From Salvelinus alpinus (Eukaryota > Chordata > Actinopteri > Salmoniformes > Salmonidae), in NCBI RefSeq assembly GCF_045679555.1, contig NC_092122.1, forward strand, positions 13,624,506 to 13,688,505: a DNA stretch of 64,000 bases, written 5' to 3'. The notes beneath the pieces are model-generated. The model worked only from the letters and a program-made list of their open reading frames with translations. It made no database searches and was not told where the DNA came from. This document shows, one piece after another, positions 6,153 through 64,000 of the stretch. The position numbers were made by a program, and so were the translations under genes. Position 1 is the first letter of the stretch. Each line of letters opens with the position of its first letter.

Positions 6153-19361
<13,209 letters not shown>

Positions 19362-22300
19362 CGATGAGCAAGAAAGAAGGAAGAGAGGAAAGAAGAGAGA
19401 AAGGAAGGAAGAAGAGAGGAAGGAAAAAGGGAGCGAGAGAAAGGGAAAGAGAAAGAAGGAAGAAAGAAGAGAGGAAGGAAGAAAGAAGAGAGGAAGGGAG
19501 AAAGGGAGAGAGAAAGAAGAGAGAATTGGTAGGGTTGGCACTGTGTTCCACTCCTCTTCATGTCTCCTGGGCTCTGCTTATTCCTGAGGACTCCATCGTG
19601 GCTCCAGTCACTCCAGTTTTCTCTGCAAAGGTACTTACATTTACATTTAAGTCATTTAGCAGACGCTCTTATCCAGAGCGACTTACAAATTGGTGCATTC
19701 ACCTTATGATATCCAGTGGAACAACCACTTTACAATAGTGCATCTAACTCTTTTAAGGGGGGGGTGGGGGGGGGGGGGGTTAGAAGGATTACTTTCTCCT
19801 ATCCTAGGTATTCCTTAAAGAGGTGGGGTTTCAGGTGTCTCCGGAAGGTGGTGATTGACTCCGCTGACCTGGCGTCGTGAGGGAGTTTGTTCCACCATTG
19901 GGGTGCCAGAGCAGCGAACAGTTTTGACTGGGCTGAGCGGGAACTGTACTTCCTCAGAGGTAGGGAGGCGAGCAGGCCAGAGGTGGATGAACGCAGTGCC
20001 CTTGTTTGGGTGTAGGGCCTGATCAGAGCCTGAAGGTACGGAGGTGCATACTTGTTCCCATGATTCTGACTGAAACTGGAAAGTGGTTTGGCTCCCCACC
20101 CTAGACCCCACCACACAGGGAAACACAACCCTGCTTATTGCTATGGATATTATAGGGCTGCAAATGAAAGGAACTGTCACTGTTTTTGTATTTTTTGTAT
20201 TGTCATTTGGAGTTTATCTGTACAGTCATGTCTAAAGTATTTATAATTATTAATGTTGGTATGATTCATCTTTATTAAATGCTCACTTGGCTTTGGGCCC
20301 GTGTTTGTATTTGTGTGCAGTTCTGTTAGGCTACACATTATTATTAGTTTATGTACCATGAAAGAAAAATGCCAACACACAGTCACACACACAAATAAAT
20401 CCATTATCTCCCAGGACGTCCCATTCTCTCGTTGCAGTTTCATTCGGTAACATAATTCCTCCCCACCACAGTCACGCCTCCAGACCAGTTTCCGCCCTTC
20501 TGAGAGAAAATACTCCGCCTGCGATTCATCGACGACAGCAGGAAAGTTTAAATATAGCCTACAAAAATAATACAAAAGGATTTGTTAACTTCTGCATTAT
20601 CGCGGATTCTACGCTGGAAACCCGGACAGAGTCAGTAGTCAGGAGATGGCTGAAATGAGGATGAGCTGAACTCGAGCTGGTACATTTACGGTACGGAATC
20701 ATCGCTTTGGTCTGGATACTTCGGCCATGCTGTTTAGGACAAGTCTAAAATCATCCCAGCAGTCTGGGTATCAATCCAGTCTGTGTAATGTTCTAAAAAC
20801 TTTGATGAGAATATATGCTTGTAAATTGTTAGATTTACGCACGACCAAAGTTATATGTTTACAACGTTAACGAATTAAATCAGACGTGTGGCCAAAACCA
20901 TTGGACCTGGCTGCTAAACAATGTTGACATTTTCTTTTAACAGAAGTTACATAACACTATCAGATTCAAACACTAACATAACACATTCTAGAGCGAGCAA
21001 CAATGCTTCTTTCTCGATCCTCACCAAATGTCACTTCCTGTGGTGGCGATGTAGAAAAAAGATGAAAGGGGAGTGCAATCTGTGATGTATTATTCTGTAT
21101 TTGGACTAAAAGTGATGGTAGATTTCTGTGTGTGTGTGTGTGTGTGTCAGAGCCCACTACACTGCTATTGGCTCGGTAAATCATTTCCAGAAGAACATAA
21201 CTAAGTTACTACTACATAGAACAACAGTAGGCCTACATGAAATAGTTGTGTGTGCTTTGTTTTACAGGTCCCTCCGCTGAAGGCTCGACGGCATCATCTA
21301 ATTCCTTATCTAAGTGGTAAAAGTATTACGAGAACAGTTTACATGTTCAAATAGTATCAATTGTCATGACTCAACACAACCCCAAGAGGGCAGCCTTTCC
21401 CATGAAATAAGTGACCAAATCAAAACATTGTTCGGTATGTTCTTTAGTTTTTCAAATGCATTTTCTGTTATTTCTGCGGGGCTATCTGGAGGTTTTGGAA
21501 TTGTGCTCGTATACACGACATTCCCAAATACTTCTATATCAGGAGTGAACTGGATAGCCTACATAATTATGAAAACGTTGCTTTAGTCCATAGGACTCCA
21601 GTCACGGTCATTCTTGAGCAAACTGCCTGCCCTCGTGTGGTTCCGTTGAGGAATATTTTCACAGGTACATGTCAAACAGGTGGATAGGAGCTAATCATCT
21701 TTGTGTCAAATGTATACTCACCTGGGAAAATGTAGGCCTTAGTCTGTTGTAATCCCACAAGAGATCAACTATTTAAAAAAAATTACAGGGACGAGAGAAA
21801 AAAAACTTATTTTAAATAGATGGGTTAGCTGGAAATGTCACGAGAACAATGTGCATGCTTCTATGGGGGCAGAAGTCAGCGTGTTGTGATTCTGGATGAC
21901 CAGATTGCTAGCAAGAATGAGAAGCGTAATGTGGGGAATCGTAAGTGGCTCGTTTTCTTGATACCATGTCTTGTTTTGACAGATTTCATGTCAATGCTAT
22001 GGCCCAAATTCGCAAGCTAACCAACAACTTTAACGATGTATTTGAGAGACAAGTACACATTTATTTCTGTTTTTAATAAACATCGAATTCGAAATACAGT
22101 TGACATGTCAGCAATTTAAAGCCAACCCCGTGTGTTTTGCCCTATAGTTGTGCAAGCGTTGATTTTGTTGCTGAACAACCAACCCTTCTATACCAGCGAG
22201 TTTTCATTAGTTTACTTTGCTAACGCTGCACTGGTGGTTTCTTGAGGAATTACAACAGTTTCGCAAGTGAGGTGAGTGCAGTATTACTATTTACTAGTGC

Positions 22301-22491
22301 CTATGGAAATACACTCCGTTGTGACGACTAAAAGGAAACAAGTTCGAGCAGTGTTTGAGGTAATCGAGATATTCAATCACATTTGAATTGTAGTCGATTG
22401 CTGATCATTTGCAAGGGAGAAACGTACAAATTCTTCACAAAAGTTTTACATAAACACTGCCGTTTTATTTGCAGATCGTCACAGCTTCACC
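19362..22491. other. elapor2 3' side and tetraspanin 5' side
   Basis: Just after the elapor2 stop comes a purine-rich GAAGGAA tract (about 19370-19525), then a reverse-strand LINE tail (19634-20130), an ATTAAA at 20274-20279 that could serve as poly(A) signal, and a CpG-containing stretch near 20560-20700. That stretch is a plausible non-coding first exon or promoter of the tetraspanin, but no junction can be proved. The short open frames at 21314-22020 match nothing I recognise. Confidence 0.4.
19634..20130 (-). mobile_element. LINE 3' fragment, reverse orientation
   Basis: The minus strand encodes the extreme C-terminus of a LINE reverse transcriptase (SSTSGLLASLPLRKYSSRSA, FAALAPQWWNKLP, FRRHLKPHLFKEYL). 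It is followed by a tail with GTCGCTCTGGATAAGAGCGT and CTGCTAAATG. The same tail ends the SINE at 30906-31340. A G-run at 19757-19779 interrupts it. Confidence 0.8.
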
Positions 22492-23913
22492 ATGGCTCGC
22501 GGCTGCCTCTGCTGTGTCAAATACATGCTGTTCCTCTTCAACCTGCTCTTTTGGGTGGGTGAACAAACTCACTATACACATCATGATTTTCAAACTAATT
22601 GATATTCTGATTCTGCATAATATTTTATTATTAAATCATAGTATACTAAAGGTATAATAATGATTAGAGTAATGACAATAATCATGTATTTATATTTTAT
22701 TCTGTCTCTTTCAGTTGGGGGGCTGTGGTTTGTTGGGTGTGGGGGTGTGGTTGTCTGTGTCTCAGGGCAGTTTTGCCACCCTATCACCATCCTTTCCCTC
22801 CATCTCTGCTGCCAACCTCATCATCACCCTGGGTGCTGTCATCATGGTTACAGGCTTCCTGGGTTGCCTGGGTGCCATCAAGGAGAACAAGTGTCTGCTG
22901 CTGAGTGTGAGTGAACTACACGACCACGATGCACCACACTACATTGCTTGGCACATTGGCAACCTCACCTGCCTCTCTCTCTTCTCTCACTTGTTCCCTG
23001 TAGTTTTTCATCACGTTGTTGGTTATTCTGTTGGCGGAGCTGATCCTTCTCATCCTGTTCTTCGTATACACAGACAATGTAAGACTCCCATAGAAGCGTC
23101 CTGTCAATTCAACCCCAGGTTATCCTTCCTCCTATGGTTCCTGTACCCATAGTGCCTCTGCCTACATTTCTCATGATCCACTGTGTGTGCAGGTGAGTGA
23201 GAACGCCAGACAGGACCTGAAAGAGGGACTTGCTCTGTACAGCACCAACAACAACGCTGGCCTCCGCAACGCCTGGAACACCATACAGACAGAGGTACGG
23301 TACCTAACTACTAATGATCTACCATACAACGCCACACTAATAGCATAGCATTCCACAAGGGAGAGGTGCAATATATAACCCTGTCTCCTCTGTCTCCCTG
23401 TCAGTGGCATTGTTGTGGGGTGAATGGGTACACAGACTGGCACACTGCCCTGCAGGAGAAGGTGGTTCCTGACCACTGCTGCCAGGATATCTACCAGGAC
23501 TGTGGGCGCAATGCCACCAACCAGTTCTGGACACGGGTCAGTTTGTGTTTATTTAAAAATGTCTGATCTTCTCCCTACCATCAAGGAGTGTGTGTGTGTA
23601 TTCATGTGTATCTGCATGTGTAGGAGTGTCTTTTTTCACTTCTCAAGATTGTATGTTTCTCTTGTCAGGGTTGCTATGAGAAGGTGGAGGAGTGGCTGGA
23701 TGACAATAAACACCTGCTGGGAACCATCGCCATGTGTGTTCTGGTCATACAGGTAAGGTGTGTGTGTGTGTGTGTGTGTACATACAGATGTACATGTAAT
23801 GATGTTGTTGCAGTGTGATTGATGTGACTTTCTGTCTGCAGCTCCTGGGTATGGCCTTCTCCATGACTTTGTACCAGCAGATCCACCGATCCGGGAAGAA
23901 GTACGAAGCTTAG
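22492..23913 (+). CDS. tspan9: Tetraspanin, TSPAN9-like, complete, 7 coding exons
   Basis: Coding exons: 22492-22554, 22715-22906, 23004-23078, 23193-23294, 23405-23536, 23669-23752, 23842-23913; every junction is phase 0. The 239-residue product equals the TSPAN9 length. It has four membrane spans (about 12-34, 55-77, 86-106, 205-229) and the conserved GFLGCLGAIKENKCLLLS segment. The large extracellular loop carries the CCG motif (C147, C148), CC at 169-170, C177 and C190, plus an N-glycosylation sequon at N180. The tail ends HRSGKKYEA. Tetraspanins organise membrane microdomains with integrins and other partners. TSPAN4 is the nearest alternative, but NENA-like SENARQDLKEGL, ATNQFWTRGCYEKV and the C-terminus read closer to TSPAN9. 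The start is supported by the family-typical MARGCLCC. The 5' UTR splices in upstream (acceptor ending at 22474). Confidence 0.92.
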
Positions 23914-25045
23914 AACACACACAGAGTTTGAGACCCATTACTTTTATACAAAATTATACTCTAAAAAGACACAAACCTGCGCACACACACATGCCACAAA
24001 ACGACTTTTAATGTAGTGTTTATATTTACACACCCTTGTATCATTTTCTGCACAAAGGCAATTTTAATGTTTTTTGAGGATCATCTTAATGTTCTTGGCC
24101 GGGATTCAATCCGACTGCGGGTTGTCAACAATTAATGTGATCTCATGCATGGTAAATGGGTCATTCCACAAATAAAGTGCCAAAAATCAGCATTTTGACA
24201 TTGTCCCGCGTTATGTTTTTCCAACTTCAGCCCAAAATTCCTCCATGTTTTAACCATCATTGAAGTTATACTCTTAAAAAGTTGAACTAGTTATGTTGTT
24301 GCTTTGACAGTAATTTCTGAAGATGTATTTATTTCATGCGATTAATTTATGTCTGTCCCTCATTTTAAGGCCAACCCTGTTACGTGAACATAACTTTTTT
24401 TAAATATATATATATGGTGAATCTATTCCTTTTTAAGAAGTTTTTTCTAACAAACAGTCAACTCAGTGTAAAGGAGGTGAACTGGTTCTACTCTTTTTGG
24501 CAATTTTCTGGTGCTTTGTGCTTAAACTGAGCGTGTCAATTATAACGTCATCCCTTTTACCCATAGATTGGAATTGTTAAAACATTTCTAGCCAATAGTT
24601 TTGTGAAGCTTGCATTCAAGTGTCCATTCTCCCTGTCACAAGGGGATTTTTATTTAACCGCTTAATGTGACACCGCTTATGTTAAATTAATAGTTTGTTT
24701 TGACCAATTTACACTGCCCATAATGTTAGCATTTTGTGGAAGGACCCAAATGCTGCATATAGCTCAATCGGAAATTCCCTTTAAGCTGAATTGTCGACAA
24801 CCCCGGCCCTAGTTCAGTTATGGTGGGACTAAGTGTGGGTGAGGAAGGGGGGTTGGATTGTGTGGGTGTAGGGACACCCCTCAGTCATCCAGAATAGAAT
24901 GAATGGCTTGAACACAAAAAGAGTAGAGGGAAAGAGGTTTGGTTTCATGCCTTAGAAATCCTTAAACTGATTAGTTATATTGTACGGATGCATTATTGTA
25001 AAACCAGTTACTGGGATGTGTTCAATAAAAGTTACGCTTATTCTG
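23914..25045 (+). other. tspan9: Probable tspan9 3' UTR
   Basis: The region from the stop to just past the AATAAA at 25024-25029 (in TTCAATAAAAGTTACG) is a plausible 1.1 kb 3' UTR. It seems to contain an old element: GCGGGTTGTCAACAATT near 24117 is the approximate reverse complement of sequence near 24790, suggesting a degenerate inverted-repeat transposon at roughly 24105-24815. Confidence 0.5.
25024..25029 (+). terminator. tspan9: Poly(A) signal, tspan9
   Basis: Canonical AATAAA about 1.1 kb after the tetraspanin stop, followed by a T/G-rich stretch. Assignment is inferred from position. Confidence 0.6.
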
Positions 25046-25102
25046 TCAAAGTGCTGGCCATCTTTCCTTCAGTTCAAATTGCAATTCTGTTTACTAAAGC
25101 AT

Positions 25103-25800
25103 CATCTAGTACTGTTACAGGAGTGAACTATCATCTAGTACTGTTACAGGAGTGAACTATCATCTAGTACTGTTACAGGAGTGAACTATCATCTAGTACT
25201 GTTACAGGAGTGAACTATCATCTAGTACTGTTACAGGAGTGAACTATCATCATCTAGTACTGTTACAGGAGTGAACTATCATCTAGTACTGTTACAGGAG
25301 TGAACTATCATCTAGTACTGTTACAGGAGTGAACCATCATCATCTAGTACTGTTACAGGAGTGAACCATCATCATCTAGTACTGTTACAGGAGTGAACTA
25401 TCATCATCTAGAAACTGTTACAAGAGTGAACTATCATCACCTAGAAACTGTTACAGGAGTGAACTATCAGCATCTAGAAACTGTTACAGGAGTGAACTAT
25501 CATCATCATCTAGTACTGTTACAGGAGTGAACTATCATCATCTAGAAACTGTTACAGGAGTGAACTATCATCATCATCTAGAAACTGTTACAGGAGTGAA
25601 CTATCATCATCATCTAGAAACTGTTACAAGAGTGAACTATCATCATCGAGTACTGTTACAGGAGTGAACTATCATCATCATCTAGTACTGTTACAGGAGT
25701 GAACTATCATCATCTAGTACTGTTACAGGAGTGAACTATCATCATCATCTAGAAACTGTTACAGGAGTGAACTATCATCATCTAGTACTGTTACAGGAGT
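25103..25800. repeat. 29/32/35-bp minisatellite
   Basis: About 22 copies of a unit with CTAGTACTGTTACAGGAGTG and AACTAT, separated by one to three CAT triplets, giving lengths of 29, 32 or 35 bp. A second variant has CTAGAAACTGTTACA. It starts about 75 bp after the tspan9 poly(A) signal. Confidence 0.95.
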
Positions 25801-25801
25801 G

Positions 25802-27837
25802 CCCCAGGAGAAACAATGCCACCTCATTCTGCAGAATATTATAGAAGTCTGCCTCATGATTCTGAGGTTGTATGTTCAAGAGAGAACGTGCAAGAATTTG
25901 TGGCTCAATGGTTAGAACCCCTGTCTCATAACCTTGAGTTTGTGGGTTTAAACCTCAACTTTTACACTTGTGTAGATTTCTGCAACTATTAATGTCAAAC
26001 ATACGAAGAGGAGCAAGAAAAGTGTGAAGGAGTCTGCCCTTGCACCACTGTGGTTAAGTTCAAACCTTAACTCTTACACTTCAAGTTTAACAACTCAATA
26101 TCAAAGACTTATACCATGACATTGTTGAATACTTGTTTCTGATTGGCTTGAAGGGCATTCTAGATTGTCATTATTTCCCTAAGGCACGGTAGAGCTCAAT
26201 GGCTATAGTTCATTACATGTTTGAGCTGCAAAAATAAATAAAAATGAATTGAAACCACTGCCATTTTTTTATTAAAATTCATAACAGCAAGCTAGAACGG
26301 ATGGTTTGGTTAGCTAAACTAGCAAGTCTGCTTCTTTGGTTACCAAGGCAACTACTGTCACTATCTAGTAAACTTGTAAGCTACTTCAGTGGATGTTGTA
26401 GCAGCAAATGTGTTAAATTATAGCCCTGGTTCAATAAAAGGGATAATCAACTCGTGGCTCTATGCGTTATCTGGAAAATAATGCAAATCTGTGGAAGGTC
26501 AGTTCCACTCCGCGAGCATGTCCTACCTAGAGGTTATGGGTCCAAACCTCATCTCTTGTGCTTTTATGTACGTTTCAACAATTCTCCATGTCAAACACAC
26601 AGAGGGGAGGGTGAAGGCGTCGGTGGCTCTGGTGTAAGGATCTTGTCCCATAAGCACAGGTTTGTAGGTTCAAACCCTGTTGCTGGCTCATGGTTGCCCA
26701 TTGGGACTGAGTCAAGGGGAGTGGCTGCCACACAAAGATGGTTGGAGCAATAAGAGGAGGTGGTTAACTCCTGCGGGGTCCCTGTGAATTCAAAGCAGTG
26801 GTTATGGAGAACATCTCCTGAAAAAAGTGGGCACTTAGTATTTAACTATAGACAACTCTCCATTTAAATACCAAGTGCCCACTTTTTTCAGGAGATTTTT
26901 TTCTTCCCATAACCATCTTTGAGTGGCAGCACCTCTCTATCATTCACGCAACCATGCTGCAGTGCCACACACTGGAGCATGGTCCTATGGGTGGAGGGTG
27001 AGATCCTTACCACTAAGCCACCAGTTCCTTCACATCTCTTCATATATTTGACATAAATATGTCTGTAAACAAAACATTTACAAGAGTTTAGCTCAACGTT
27101 TAATTTGGCGAACTCCCTTGTCTACCAAGGGAGTCCAATGGTTAAACTATGATGATTCCCATCCAGCTCCCAGTCCTCAAAAACTACAAAGGTTACAAAA
27201 GCAGTCTCTCTGCTTTCTCTGACCCTCAGACACACTACTGGATCATACTGAGCACAGTCCCCTTGCAACACTACTGGTATGCGTGATCAGGTGAGCTGGC
27301 AGATAGTACCATGTTCTACAGGCTGAGCTTCCTCCCTAATGATGCACTAACCTCGCCTGTGTTAGCTTTACTAACTCTCCTACAACCTCAGCAATGAGAC
27401 AGGAAGGGGAGGGGTGTAGAGCTGAAGGGCGAAAGATTAACAGAGCAAGAATGAGAGGAACCAAGGGTCAGAAGGTCTCCAACCTAAAACAGGGCAAAAA
27501 AATGACAGCGCAAGAATGGAGACTTTTGTTTATAGTAAGAAAAACATTTAATCATGTTCTTTATAACAAACACTTACTGGATATGAACCCTACCCAACTC
27601 TACAGTCATTTGGAGATTGTTTCGCCAATGGTTCAAAGCCCATACTCAAATGTTACCACATAACCCACTGACCAAGACATAGAATATCTGGTTGATATTA
27701 ACTGTCTATTTACAAATCCTTGTCTGAGAGCTGTGTCAATTTATAAAGCCACAGAGCCCTGTCCACAAGGCACGGAGCTAAGGGCCGTTTGAGACTATGT
27801 CTGAGGGAAGAACAATTATCCAAAACCAATTTTGGAG
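25802..27837. other. Gene-free repeat-rich stretch with an inverted-repeat element
   Basis: Several degenerate copies of a tRNA-like unit (GTGGCTCAATGGTTAGAAC, GGTTTAAACCTC) occur at about 25895-26110 and 26490-26700. A partner lies in the opposite orientation near 26960-27060 (CCTTACCACTAAGCCACC). The copies centre on a strong hairpin at about 26800-26925. This looks like a decayed foldback element built from SINE-like sequence. No gene is supported. Confidence 0.45.
26800..26925. repeat. Long hairpin (inverted repeat)
   Basis: ATCTCCTGAAAAAAGTGGGC at about 26812 is matched by its near-perfect reverse complement around 26875-26897, and the outer GGTTATGG pairs with CCATAACC. Confidence 0.85.
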
Positions 27838-28820
27838 TTAGAAGTCCATGGTTTTGTCGTTGTTGTAGACGACATTGCCCCTGATGACAACGTAGCGGAT
27901 CAGTTCCTGGTGTCCTCCTAACTGGTAGATGAGATGCTCCCAACCGCTGGACAACACCATCAACACAACACTGTCAGTCTACACTAAAGTGTCAGCCACA
28001 CACAGACAATCAACACAACTTTAGGTAGTCTCACTCACACAAACCAATCGGTTCCATTCACACAGCTACTGCATTTTAGACAACGCCATACACAGTCCTC
28101 ACCACAATTACAAGATAACCTTTCAGCAGCTACTGGAACATACACTGTGGTGTCTGACCATTAAATGAAGCCAGCTCTTACAATATAGTAGCATTTATTG
28201 ACAGCAACTTTACCGTGGTGCGTTGACGACCAGCAGGTCGCCGTGTTTGTTGACCTCCAGGGAGCCGTGCGTGTGAGAGCGGCCCAGGGCGTAGGCTGCG
28301 TTGATGGTGGGGGTGGCCAGAGCCTCGGGCATGGACATCCTCATGTTGACATGCCAGGTGCATCACCACCGGCTGGGATAGACAGAGAGGGATAAAGAGA
28401 TGATGACAGAGGGATCGCTATATAGAGGAATAGGCTTTATACCTTCTTCTCCTACTAACTCATTGAACTTACCCCCACAGCCCCCTCCATCTTTCCCCCC
28501 TAACTTTCCTCCTCCACCCCCCGTCCTCTGGTACCCACCAGAGCAACAATAGGCATTAGGGTTGAAGTCACTGCCCAGGGCAACAATGGCCCCAGCCTCC
28601 AGCATGTCTCAGGCCCGCGGCTATAGTAACCGCAGGATGTAAGTGGTGGCTGGGAGCAGGATGGTGGCGGTCTTAGCTGTCGCCATGGCAGCAATGCCAT
28701 CATCTGTCACATCCCCCAGGTGACTGATAGCCAAGGCACCGAGCTCTGCCCCCAGCTAGCACCACCAGAGAAAAAAAACACACACACACACAATACAGGA
28801 ATGGTTAAGTGAGATGGACA

Positions 28821-29489
28821 TGTTGGATTCCGAGAATATGAAGGAAAAAGGAAACCGCACACTGCTCTTGATAGTATCACCGATATTTAATAAGCTTACG
28901 TATCGGCCACACGGCCTTCGTCAGATCAAGTGGAGTGTGTGGTTTCCTTTTTCCTTCATCTTGTTCAACTGTTACCATGCACCTGCAAATAAGATTGCTC
29001 AGATGTGTGAGTGCCTTTTGAATTGGGTTCCGAGAATATGAAATATACTTATTCATGTCACTGATGGGAGTGCTGAGGTTTAGAGGGTCTATACCAGAAG
29101 TTAAGGGTTATAGGAGGAAGGTATATAGTGTGTGCAACTAAGCTTGGAATGTGTTGAGTGCAGGGAAGTGATTACATGTGGCAGGCATTGATAAGGGGAG
29201 AGAGCCATGGATTAGTGGTGGAGGGGGGTTGAGGTCAGGTCAGGTCACCTTAAGGGAGAAATAAAAGTTTATGGCCCATATCACTAGTGTCCTGCCTAGC
29301 AGTAAAGAACGATGTTTGTACAGATAGGTAGGAGGAGACTCAGCCTATGAGGAACGGTTAAATATCAGTGCTTGTGTGATTTTTGTTGTTGTCTGAATGC
29401 CGCTGTATTGATCCTCTGGGTGGAATAAACTTGGTTAAGCTTTCATAAATGTCGGTTGTGTTTTTTACTCTGAGAATTAGAACTTAACA
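28821..29489. mobile_element. Solo LTR with a 200-bp internal insertion, in amdhd1 intron 5
   Basis: The element begins TGTTGGATTCCG and ends GAACTTAACA, contains AATAAA near 29425, and is bracketed by a 4-bp direct repeat GACA (28817-28820 and 29490-29493). The inner segment 28841-29040 is flanked by an 18-bp direct repeat with one mismatch (TTGGATTCCGAGAATATG / TTGGGTTCCGAGAATATG). It is therefore a later insertion, and contains 24-bp inverted arms at 28840-28863 and 28934-28957. The LTR family is not assigned. Confidence 0.65.
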
Positions 29490-29965
29490 GACAGTACCAT
29501 AGACACTTAAATAATGCGTACAGGTACTAAACCAGTTGTTGTTACCACAGTGACAGTAGAGAGGCGCAGGTTGATGATGCGTACCTGTGCAGAGTTCATG
29601 GGGTGCAGCTCGTCTCCGTGGAAGTTGATGCTGAGGCCCATGTCCAGGCCGGCCTGCAGGATGGAGCGCGTGGAGGACATGTCAAACACACCCTGCTCAC
29701 AGGACACATCTATGTTGTCCACCCTCAGGGCCCCCGCTGACATACGCGGCAACTGGACCTGAAGGATGTCTGCTGTCGCCTCGGCAACAGTCTTACCCCT
29801 GGGAAAGAATCAGAAGGGGTGGGTATTTAATAACACCTAGTGAGGATGAAAGTCAGTAGGGTTAGCTGTATGGGTGTGGGTGAATGTAATATATAACCTC
29901 AACAGGTTATGACGGGGTGGAATTGAGGTGTCTGTTCAGGATGGAGTGTTCAACATCGTGTAGTG

Positions 29966-30135
29966 CAGTGGTTCCCAACCTTTTTCTGTTACTATACCAT
30001 CAACTGAATTTTGCTCTGCCCAGAGTACCTCTGAAGTACCCCCTCATGTGCATTTTACCAGCAAGTCTAGGGTGTCATGAGTCTTCTCAAGTACCCCCTG
30101 TGGATAAGCCAAGTACCCCTGGTTGGGAACCACTG
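29966..30135. mobile_element. hAT-type MITE in amdhd1 intron 4
   Basis: Terminal inverted repeats CAGTGGTTCCCAACC and GGTTGGGAACCACTG are perfect over 15 bp. The flanking 8-bp duplication (GTGTAGTG / GTGTAGAG) matches at seven of eight positions. It has no coding capacity. Confidence 0.88.
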
Positions 30136-30905
30136 GTGTAGAGAGTGTGTGTTCAGTACTTAGGGACGGCGTGTGCTCCACAGTAGGTAGACGATATATT
30201 GATTGGCAGGGTACGTCTGGCCGTCTCGATGACCTCCAGCATCTTCAGCTCTGTCTGCAGCTCCAGGCCGTAGCCACTCTTACACTCCACCAGGGTAGTG
30301 CCTGCCCGCTGCATCCGACCCAGCCTGCCTGTCAGAGGCCAGCAGGGTGGAGGGAAGAGCAGCCCGGGTGTGCTCCACTGTGAAGTGGATCCCTCCTCCG
30401 GCACGGTGCACATCCATGTAAGTGGCACCAGCCAACTGTCGGCACTCACAGCATTACCTAGGCGGCGTTTTGACAGGCAGCCAATTCTGATCTTTTTTCA
30501 CTAATTGGTCTTTAAAAAAAATCTGATCACCTCTGAAACAGATCTCGTGTGAAATGATCTGATGCAAAAATTTGTGGAAAAAATATAAATTGGGCTGCTT
30601 GTGTAAATGCCATATAAACCTTTACTTTTACTCTATAAGGTGAGTCATATTACAAGCTGTTGAGGCAGAGGGGACAGGACCCATGGAAGTCATATTTACC
30701 TTCATGGCAAATTCATGAACCCTGTCTCCAGCCCATACCGTGCCGGGTGTGTGCATCAACCAATCCTGAAACGTAATAATACAATGAGCACGGCTGCATT
30801 TCTATAAAACCTAATTCTCTACATGATAGAACACTAAACCAACGATTCAAATATTTGTATCAATAGAACAGGGGAGCATTCGGCAGGACCAAACGTTTTG
30901 GAACA

Positions 30906-31340
30906 GGACCTCCCGGGTGGCGCAGTGGTCTAGGGCACTGGATCGCAGTGCTAGCTGCGCCACCAGAGTCTCTGGGTTCGCGCCCAGGCTGGGCTAGGTT
31001 CGCGCCCAGGCTCTGTTGCAGCCGGCCGCAACCGGGAGATCCGTGGGGCGACGCACAATTGGCATAGCGTCGTCCGGGTTAGGGAGGGTTTGGCCGGTAG
31101 GGAGGGTTTGGCCGGTAGGGAGGGTTTGGCCGGTAGGGATATCCTTGTCTCAGTATGTAAAAATGTAATAAAAATGTATGCACTCTACTGTAAGTCGCTC
31201 TGGATAAGAGCGTCTGCTCTTGGCCGGTAGGGATATCCTTGTCTCAGTATGTAAAAAATGTAATAAAATGTATGCACTCTACTGTAAGTCGCTCTGGATA
31301 AGAGCGTCTGCTAAATGTCTAAAATGTAAATGTAAAAATG
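30906..31340 (+). repeat. tRNA-derived SINE with internal duplications
   Basis: The head CCCGGGTGGCGCAGTGGTCT and box-B-like GGGTTCGCGCCCAGGC show tRNA ancestry. The middle has three copies of an 18-bp AGGGAGGGTTTGGCCGGT unit. The tail, with GTCGCTCTGGATAAGAGCGT and CTGCT, is present twice because of an internal tandem duplication of about 100 bp. The same tail occurs on the LINE fragment at 19634-20130. Confidence 0.85.
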
Positions 31341-31382
31341 TAACATTAAAATATGCCAGGTAGGCCAAACACGGCTCTGACA

Positions 31383-31505
31383 CACAGGAGGCTGCGGAGG
31401 GGAGAACAGCTCATAACCATGTGTTTGATACCATTCCACTGATTCCCGCACCAGCCATTACCACGAGCCCGTCCTCACCAATTAATGTGCCACCCACCTC
31501 CTGTG
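31383..31505. mobile_element. Short hAT-type MITE with perfect target duplication
   Basis: The 123-bp element runs from CACAGGAGGC to CACCTCCTGTG and sits between two identical CTCTGACA octamers (31375-31382 and 31506-31513), the 8-bp duplication expected of hAT insertion. It lies in amdhd1 intron 2. Confidence 0.87.
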
Positions 31506-32552
31506 CTCTGACATGTAGAATAAGGAATAACGTCAGCCCTATTCATGGCATTTCTATCTGCACCGTTTGACAAATAAACATGCCCATGGTTGCATGTTTA
31601 CATGGCCCTTGCTATCCGGGGTCCTTGGGATGTCCCCACACCATTGAAATTAACATTTAAAATGGTACGGGTTAAGTTTAGCTATTAGTTATGGTTAAGT
31701 ATCCCAGATAGCACAAACCATGTTTACACCTTCGTGCACGCCTAGATCTACCGCCCCTATTGTCCAGAGTGGTGTATTGCACTGATACTTGTCTGGAATG
31801 ACACACATGCCAGTTGCATCGATTACTTTATCAAACGAGCACCCTGCATATTGGATATCAATGGTGCTCAATAGTCCAATATCTTTTATCAGACCGTCGC
31901 TGCACGAACAAAACAAAGCTCTTTTAATCAATAGTTTGCGGTGGGATAACATTTGGTTTAGCCTAAATTTAGTTTTGCTTTCACAGCACGTTAGGGCAAT
32001 CCGTAGTCAACTCGTTCTAACCAAATTGCAACAAACATTAACTAGTAGCCAAACCACTGAACATTAAACAATGTTACAAACTGCAGACCTATATCGGACA
32101 TTAATGATACAATGTTTCGACATACCTCCCGATAACCAAACTACTGTTCTCAATCACACACAGCTTTTGCATCCCTTCCTTCGTCAGGAACTTCTCACCG
32201 TTGTTGAAAATTAAAACCACCTGTTGTTTCGCGTTCTTTACCAAAAGTTTGTTAGACATTTTGAAATAGTCGAAATTAAGCTTAAAAATGTGAATTACTT
32301 TTGTAAAGTCACCTCTATGTCACTTTCTAGTGGTTTGGGGAAAAGTTAATGTGGACAACAGGTGTTCAAAGTGCAAGTCTGGGAGGGGTTTTGGAAATTA
32401 GGAATACTGTACATTGATTGACAAGTTCTGTTCAATGTGTAGTGTTTGTTAATAAGGTTGAGACACCACATCAATCACCTCCCTCACAAACCTGTAATAA
32501 TACCACCAGACAGCAGGTTTAGGAATGGGTACAATAACCATCATTTTTTAAA

Positions 32553-32558
32553 TTTATT
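32553..32558 (-). terminator. snrpf: Poly(A) signal, snrpf
   Basis: AATAAA on the minus strand about 175 bases after the snrpf stop codon. Inferred from position. Confidence 0.55.
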
Positions 32559-32730
32559 CTACAGAGATAATACATATTGGATCATATACAGTAAAAAAAA
32601 ATATCTTGAAAGTTTTACACATATAAAGCTAACTTTCTTACCAAGAGTCCATTTTCCACATAGTGAAAATGAAAAAAACAAAGATTCAAACATTCATCCA
32701 GATCTTCAGTTGCAAGTCTCATCCTCGCCA

Positions 32731-34173
<1,443 letters not shown>

Positions 34174-35185
34174 TGCTGTGCGAAAGGTGGTGCTTTTATA
34201 TCTTAGTACTTTACTATCTTTTCGACACAAAAACGTCTAGACTTGTACGCATTGCCGCCGAAACCAGGAAGCTGGAGCCTTTCAACTTTGACCCAAAACA
34301 AAGGTTAATCGATTGAGAAAAAGAGCTTGAATTATTTATGTCCGCCACCTAGTGTACCGAGGGGCAAAAATTAAGAGACATGATTTAAATGTTCATGTTC
34401 ATTGCTCATTGCGGCAGATATTTTAAACGAAAATGTTATAGATAAATAAAGGACAGTAAACTGTTATATTTATCCATGTCCATCTTCAAATGGTTGCATT
34501 TTATTCAAAAGACTGCCCATGTGTAGTTAACTGAACAGCTATGGGGCAATGGCGCTCTCTGGCGGTTATAGTGGTTATCGTGTTGAGTATTGCACCACGG
34601 TCCACTCCCCCAAAATCTTTGGGCCATGATGTGACTTATTTGCTATCAATGGATGTAATCTACCTAGATAAAGCTTTACTAATTTCTATGTAACGCAGCA
34701 AATAAACAAATTGATGTTTTCAAGCCAAAACCCAGTCTTCGGCCATGCCCCAGGAGGAGTGACCATCAATGGAAACCACTGGTGTCCAAGGTCATTGTGA
34801 TTGAATTAAAACATTTGACACCAGATTTTAAATCTGTATTTCATTTCAAATAAAATGTTTCTTTATTTTCAATAAATGAATACATTTTGTCTGGAATTGC
34901 ATGAAGAATTTATGGTATAGAGGTAAACTGTCATATCTGGGTCTATCTGGCAGCTCTCTATATGCACTGCCGGTCTGGAGAATGCTCTCATTCATTTTTC
35001 TGTCTTGAAGCGTTCGACTGTTACTAAACCATTTGGCAAGTTTGAACTTGAGATCATGAATAATACTTCCAACAGCAAGGGATGGTTTCAGTGGAAATTC
35101 CTCTGAAATTACACTAAACCCTCTTTGTTGCTGAAATGCTGATGCCCTTACATCAATGTTAATATGTTTGTGTGAGCATGTTCAG

Positions 35186-38934: not shown

Positions 38935-62717
<23,783 letters not shown>

Positions 62718-62731
62718 GTGAGTCATATATA

Positions 62732-64000
62732 CAGTTGAAGTCAGAAGTTTACATACACATTAGACAAATATATTTAAACAATTCCTGACATTTAATCCTA
62801 GTAAAGATTCCCTGTCTAAGGTCAGTTAGGATCACCACCTTATTTTAAGAATGTGAAATGTCAGAATAATAGTAGAGAGAATGATTTATTTCAGCTTTTA
62901 TTTCTTTCATCACATTCCCAGTTGGTCAGAAGTTTACATACACTCAGTTAGTATTAGTTAGCATTGCCTTTAAATTGTTTAACTAGGGTAAAACGTTTCG
63001 GGTAGCCTTCCACAAGCTTCCCACAATAAGTTGGGTGAATTTTGGCCCATTCCTCCTGACAGAGCTGGTGTAACTGAGTCAGGTTTGTGTGCCTCCTTGC
63101 TCGCACACGCGTTTTCAGTTCTGCCCACACATTTTCGATGCGATTGAGGTCAGGGCTTTGTGATGGCCACTCCAATACCTTGACTCTGTTGTCCTTAAGC
63201 CATTTTCTTACAACTTTGGAAGTATGCTTGGGGTCATTGTCCATTTGGAAGACCCATTTGCAACCAAGCTTTACTTCCTGACTGATGTCTTGAGATGTTG
63301 CTTCAATATATACACATGATGTCCCTTCCTCATGATGCCGTCTATTTTGTGAAGTGCACCAGTCCCTCCTGCAGCAAAGCATCCCCACAACATGATGCTG
63401 ACACCACTGTGCTTCATGGCTGGGATGGTGTTCTTCGGCTTGCAAGCATCCCTATTTTTCCTCCAAACATAACGATGGTCATTATGGCCAAACAGTTCTA
63501 TTTTTGTTTCATCAGACCAGAGGACATTTCTACAAAAAGTACAATCTTTGTCCCCATGTGCAGTTGCAAACCGTAGTCTGGCTTTTTTATGGCAGTTTTG
63601 GAGCAGTGGCTTCTTCCTTGCTGAGCGGCCTTTCAGGTTATGTCGATATAGGACTTTTTTTTACTGTGGATATAGATAATTTCGTACCTGTTTCCTCCAG
63701 CATCTTCACAAGTTCCTTTGCTGTTGTTCTGGGATTGATTTGCACTTTTCGCACCAAAGTATGTTCATCTCTAGGAGACAGAACGCGTCTCCTTCCTGAG
63801 TGGTATGACAGCTGCATGGTCCCATGGTGTTTATACATGCGTACTATTGTTTGTACAGATGAACGTGGTACCTTTGGGCGTTTGGAAAATGCTCCCAAGG
63901 ATGAACCAGACTTGTGGAGGTCTACAATTTTTTTTCTGAGGGCTTGGCTGATTTCTTTTGATTTTCCCATGATGTCAAGCAAAGAGGCACTGAGTTTGAA
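62732..64000 (-). mobile_element. Third Tc1-like transposon, runs off the window
   Basis: The terminus CAGTTGAAGTCAGAAGTTTA follows TA at 62730-62731, only 14 bp after the ntn4 exon 6 donor junction. The transposase reads on the minus strand: N-terminal helix-turn-helix region at 63982-63638 (MGKSKEISQALRKKIVDLHK), then [15 protein letters not shown], and a C-terminal part ending about 62954 with catalytic FQMDNDPKHT and SPDLNRIENVW. Frame changes near 63650 and 63430 show decay. It belongs to the same family as 9071-10892 but keeps the middle segment that copy lost. Confidence 0.93.

Follow-up and report, generated by a model that had tools for sequence, protein, structure and literature searches.

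The stretch of Salvelinus alpinus DNA analysed here (the window, 64,000 nucleotides, C37:13624506-13688505) contains, along with elapor2, tspan9, snrpf and ntn4, a minus-strand copy of amdhd1, the gene for imidazolonepropionase (AMDHD1/HutI, EC 3.5.2.7). A first-pass annotation had read this copy as an intron-containing pseudogene, and alignment to a second copy on contig C11 of the same genome confirmed the presence of lesions in an eight-exon gene. The exons span exactly positions 27838-32259, with the start codon at 32259 and the stop codon ending at 27838, and the introns of the parent gene are kept, the exon boundaries matching those of the C11 copy. The exons, and two intronic stretches, are as follows.

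32126..32259, minus strand, amdhd1 pseudogene exon 1; start codon kept, 3-base in-frame difference from the C11 copy
31793..31899, minus strand, exon 2; the following donor (31792-31791) is lost, the C11 copy having a GC-type donor there
30700..30765, minus strand, exon 3; +1 frameshift near 30744, inside the His-Thr-His metal motif
30160..30435, minus strand, exon 4; 2-base frameshift near 30337
29585..29798, minus strand, exon 5; frame open, 12-base in-frame loss near 29747
28539..28755, minus strand, exon 6; in-frame TAG at 28623-28621 and TGA at 28611-28609, 2-base frameshift near 28540
28214..28372, minus strand, exon 7; 2-base frameshift near 28352
27838..27943, minus strand, exon 8; original stop codon kept, acceptor (27945-27944) lost, another AG a few bases upstream
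30906..31324, plus strand, insertion in intron 2 resembling a short interspersed element (SINE); start placed by eye, UnaL2-type tail at 31271-31324, absent from the C11 copy
28816..29506, no strand assigned, stretch of ~690 bases in intron 5, missing from the C11 copy

Identity and lesions of the amdhd1 copy

When the exons were joined, with X at the lesions, the resulting protein scored 400 bits against NCBIfam TIGR01224 hutI (cut-off 298) and matched PDB entries with a best E of 6.6e-68, the top four of the six sequences at E up to 0.001 being imidazolonepropionases, so that the identity of the copy is not by chance. These scores also bore out the strong similarity to imidazolonepropionase noted earlier for all eight exons, and the copy corresponds to imidazolonepropionase over its full length. 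Of two contig scans for closer references, one gave no relative and the other one relative, in Kitasatospora, at 38% identity. Residues aligned with H185, H249, E252, H272 and D324 of Bacillus subtilis HutI, which presumably have catalytic roles, remain in the readable pieces of the window copy, whereas the His-Thr-His motif (H80, H82) is broken by a frameshift, and the copy as a whole has no continuous reading frame. Exon 3 of the window copy thus lacks an HxH metal motif that is both intact and in frame, such as is present in the C11 copy.

Lesions were first located in alignments that allow for frameshifts, against a provisional human AMDHD1 sequence and two bacterial HutI fragments, and were then set by alignment to the C11 copy, with exon boundaries drawn anew. 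Extra frameshifts at some exon joins in the first alignment came from preset boundaries and were gone in the comparison with the C11 copy. We counted eight disabling lesions, exceeding the at least six independent ones first reported: four frame-breaking gaps (in exons 3, 4, 6 and 7), two stops, both in exon 6, one lost donor and one lost acceptor. The two stops and the two splice-site losses are substitutions; most splice sites are preserved, as is the start region.

If the copy were spliced as originally, its product would terminate in exon 3 after 97 residues, the first stop lying at ~30715; retention of intron 2 would give a stop after 112 residues, and skipping of exon 2 a stop after 47. 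The 97-residue product would lack most of the catalytic site, and five exon junctions would follow the stop; any transcript of the copy is therefore a candidate for nonsense-mediated decay. The window amdhd1 is presumably without function, and any transcript would be expected to decay.

The second copy and the duplicated block

The window's own genome (2,367,770,401 bases in 928 contigs) was searched for further copies with protein queries, 18 candidates being scored; such a search does not reach stretches that the assembly lacks. We found two amdhd1 loci, the one in the window and C11:31975521-31980010, and all 16 exon matches lay on C37 or C11. The C11 gene has eight exons totalling 1293 nt, encodes 430 aa with 0 internal stops and scores 437 bits for TIGR01224, against the same cut-off. 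Its donors are all GT save one GC after exon 2 (C11:31976008-31976009), an uncommon yet known splice form. The exons of the two copies are ~96% identical, differing at 48 of 1275 sites. Judged from its sequence, the C11 copy is intact, and it probably supplies a working enzyme. The first-pass annotation had proposed looking for a second amdhd1 next to hal; such a copy, with its reading frame intact, does exist, and hal-type exons do lie on the same two contigs, although at a distance of ~1.7 Mb on C37 and 1.1 Mb on C11.

The window and the C11 region proved collinear in reverse orientation, forming one chain of 38 alignments with 2,503 substitutions in 44,236 aligned columns. Segments of all four neighbouring genes align between the blocks, and 45,304 of the 64,000 window bases (~71%) have a mapped C11 column, which identifies the C37 and C11 loci as partners in a large duplication. 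Collinearity was judged on one 100-kb block and is by itself compatible with a large segmental duplication too; on this reading of their sequences, the blocks are the trace of a whole-genome or large segmental duplication, and the hal-type exons, which both contigs carry at over 1 Mb from amdhd1, fit a chromosome-scale event. Genome size, the similarity of the blocks and the types of repeat suggest that the duplication was probably, although not proven to be, the salmonid Ss4R event, the age of which is given as 80-100 million years in PMC8042706. Two salmonid markers sought in the genome, an Atlantic-salmon microsatellite primer (one mismatch tolerated) and a degenerate COI pattern, gave 0 matches.

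The expectation that one copy had been lost after genome doubling was thus supported by a collinear second amdhd1 on C11. In structure, the pair does not differ from Ss4R ohnolog pseudogenes, in which one of two collinear copies decays and the other keeps an intact frame. One copy of a duplicate may drift to low expression after Ss4R, with possible pseudogenization (PMC8042706), and singletons make up 26-40% of genes in Oncorhynchus species (Pacific salmon) according to PMC10119027. The window amdhd1 is an ordinary decayed duplicate, of a kind to be anticipated once a genome has doubled, and is hardly surprising.

Loss of constraint and the neighbouring genes

Comparison of window and C11 amdhd1 codons, with 13 gap-touching codons skipped, gave 28 nonsynonymous changes, the two stops included, against 18 synonymous ones, with a nonsynonymous divergence (dN) of 0.030 and a synonymous divergence (dS) of 0.062. 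We polarised the 26 changed codons, stops included, against the provisional human protein, which agreed with C11 at 16, with the window at 0 and with neither at 10; against the B. subtilis HutI fragment, the corresponding numbers were 6, 0 and 20. No changed codon sides with the window copy, and hence all assignable protein changes fall on the window branch. Noncoding divergence between the blocks was 0.063 (39,714 aligned bases), and that of the amdhd1 introns 0.072 (1,929 bases). The window-branch dN of 0.030 nearly equals the neutral value of 0.031-0.036 per lineage. Similarly, the amdhd1 exons have 6 gaps per ~37 window-branch changes, near the noncoding 0.17-0.18 per substitution, when half of the synonymous changes are assigned to each branch and all gaps are given to the window.

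How much of the divergence time had passed without constraint was estimated with three yardsticks, the dN/dS of the functional state being assumed. The shares were 0.90, 0.76 and 0.91 for a functional dN/dS of 0.06; 0.82, 0.68 and 0.84 for 0.12; 0.79, 0.64 and 0.81 for 0.14; and 0.70, 0.54 and 0.72 for 0.20, a higher assumed dN/dS leading to a lower share. The point estimates (0.54-0.91) suggest that constraint on the window amdhd1 has likely been absent over the greater part of the divergence time, and the copy may possibly have been released at once.

Domains found in the neighbouring genes by Pfam searches (covering 13001-31999 and 34001-63999 on the plus strand and 25001-34999 on the minus strand) are ELAPOR-type, tetraspanin, LSM, and Laminin_N with laminin-EGF, and the names elapor2, tspan9, snrpf and ntn4 given earlier fit them; beyond the domain level, we assume these exact names. 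Two of the genes served for comparison:

32734..33876, minus strand, snrpf exons 2-4; LSM match in exon 2, the rest by sequence; open and intact, on the amdhd1 strand
22490..23910, plus strand, tspan9 coding exons, seven recognised; open

For ntn4, the search detected no C-terminal netrin domain before the window ends, and the gene therefore probably extends beyond it.

Two sets of neighbour segments were compared between the window and C11. The first, of 25 segments, was picked by eye (18 of 35 coding-likelihood segments unchanged, two shortened at the start and five from another list); over 3,247 bp it showed 11 nonsynonymous and 56 synonymous changes, a dN/dS of 0.06, no gap and no stop, and differed from amdhd1 (11:56 versus 28:18) with a Fisher p of 2e-6, the set being partly favourable by construction, as the coding-likelihood scan penalises frame-breaking gaps and prefers third-position changes. 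The second, of 14 segments, was chosen by homology only, from the best Pfam stretches and the snrpf exons. Untrimmed (2,145 bp), it had 16 nonsynonymous and 33 synonymous changes (dN/dS 0.14; Fisher p 0.0076 against amdhd1), three gaps (6, 2 and 1 bases) and a single stop; of these, the 2- and 1-base gaps lie outside exon boundaries, and the stop, at 16386, is intronic by the boundaries of the coding-likelihood scan. Trimmed to exons (2,021 bp), it had 12.5 versus 30.5 changes (dN/dS 0.12; Fisher p 0.003), one in-frame 6-base gap and no stop. In the 25 and 14 segments checked, the neighbourhood looks otherwise intact, as had been claimed, in that no frame-breaking gap falls inside exons.

Several repeats were also observed. 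Two UnaL2 3' elements of long interspersed type (LINE; Rfam RF00436) lie at 31271-31324, the tail in amdhd1 intron 2, and at 19646-19699. Between laminin-type exons of ntn4, a minisatellite at 41041-44906 consists of 84 near-identical copies (98% matches) of a 46-base unit, and the same array in the C11 block has 31 copies. The short-unit repeat at 25100-25801 is apparently much longer in C11 (about 31981878-31984128), as judged from many overlapping alignments. Tc1-like transposase fragments are located at about 9789-10546 and 62957-64000 (by eye) and at 53447-53602 (Pfam); Pfam also placed a reverse-transcriptase domain at about 51.5-52.3 kb.

Alternative explanations and histidine breakdown

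These data are best explained if the window amdhd1 is, as we hold to be almost certain, an unprocessed, intron-containing pseudogene derived from whole-genome duplication, of which the C11 copy stayed intact and the C37 copy, without constraint, decayed. The locus would have been doubled along with its neighbours; the C11 copy would have kept an intact reading frame, and the C37 copy, free of constraint over what is probably the larger part of the time since the loci began diverging, would have gathered stops, frameshifts and splice-site losses. Some points weigh against this explanation: both the lack of function and the base calls rest on one assembly, 10 of the 26 changed codons could not be polarised with the human protein, itself provisional, the two salmonid markers gave no match, and the timing intervals are wide (95%, 0.15 to 1.92 across all settings).

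A working gene with sequencing or assembly errors might be suspected from those amdhd1 gaps that are two-base changes in short repeats, but errors of this kind are highly improbable as the cause, since the stops and splice-site losses are substitutions, the polarisable missense changes all fall on the same copy, and no frame-breaking gap occurs in those neighbouring exons of this assembly that were checked. The high exon identity to C11 and the lower timing limits, which reach 0.15-0.53, would fit a copy lost only recently or a null allele still segregating; eight disabling lesions, and point estimates placing the release from constraint much earlier, make this unlikely. The decayed copy could also still act through a noncoding transcript, one that competes, for instance, with the C11 transcript. 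That most splice sites and the start region survive is compatible with such a role, for which there is nothing positive, but protein-changing divergence, like the rate of gaps in exons, looks nearly neutral, and we give the role very little credence. That the host fish has lost imidazolonepropionase, and with it histidine breakdown, would agree with a dead window copy, but is exceedingly improbable in view of the intact frame on C11 and of a regulated transcript in Atlantic salmon, "Amidohydrolase domain containing 1", which appears at -3.01 among the regulated intestinal microarray transcripts of PMC3424111. By analogy, this transcript agrees with a working amdhd1 copy.

The first-pass annotation had warned that histidine breakdown would be lost at the imidazolone step if no second copy existed. 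This alarm does not apply: the intact C11 amdhd1 excludes a missing gene as the cause of such a loss, and because of it the step is not predicted to be lost. Among the matches listed for fish amdhd1 or imidazolonepropionase and for the trout formiminoglutamate literature, there was no study of the window locus.

For the other steps of the pathway, domain-level searches located hal-type matches above noise on C37, C11 and C9, with one weak match on C15 (17 matches); urocanase at one locus, C12:28846171-28852613 (3 matches); and FTCD_N on C38, C10 and C14 (5 matches). Where parts of the C37 and C11 hal regions were aligned, nine candidate segments had no frame-breaking gaps, partly by construction, and the upstream C37 hal exons gave no alignment to C11 in this comparison. 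It is conceivable, although rather doubtful, that amdhd1 was released almost as soon as the duplicated chromosomes stopped exchanging, with urocanase returning to one detectable locus and hal and FTCD keeping more; if true, this would suggest that the middle steps of the pathway were trimmed early, under the influence of dosage, rather than decaying slowly at random.

The apparent loss of a metabolic step is thus settled by an intact-frame amdhd1 elsewhere in the same genome, and the window locus serves as a warning for annotation, as it might be reported as a gene loss. The amdhd1 pair is a clean case of single-gene loss in a duplicated block, the remaining genes of which look intact, and is useful for estimating when duplicates lose constraint.

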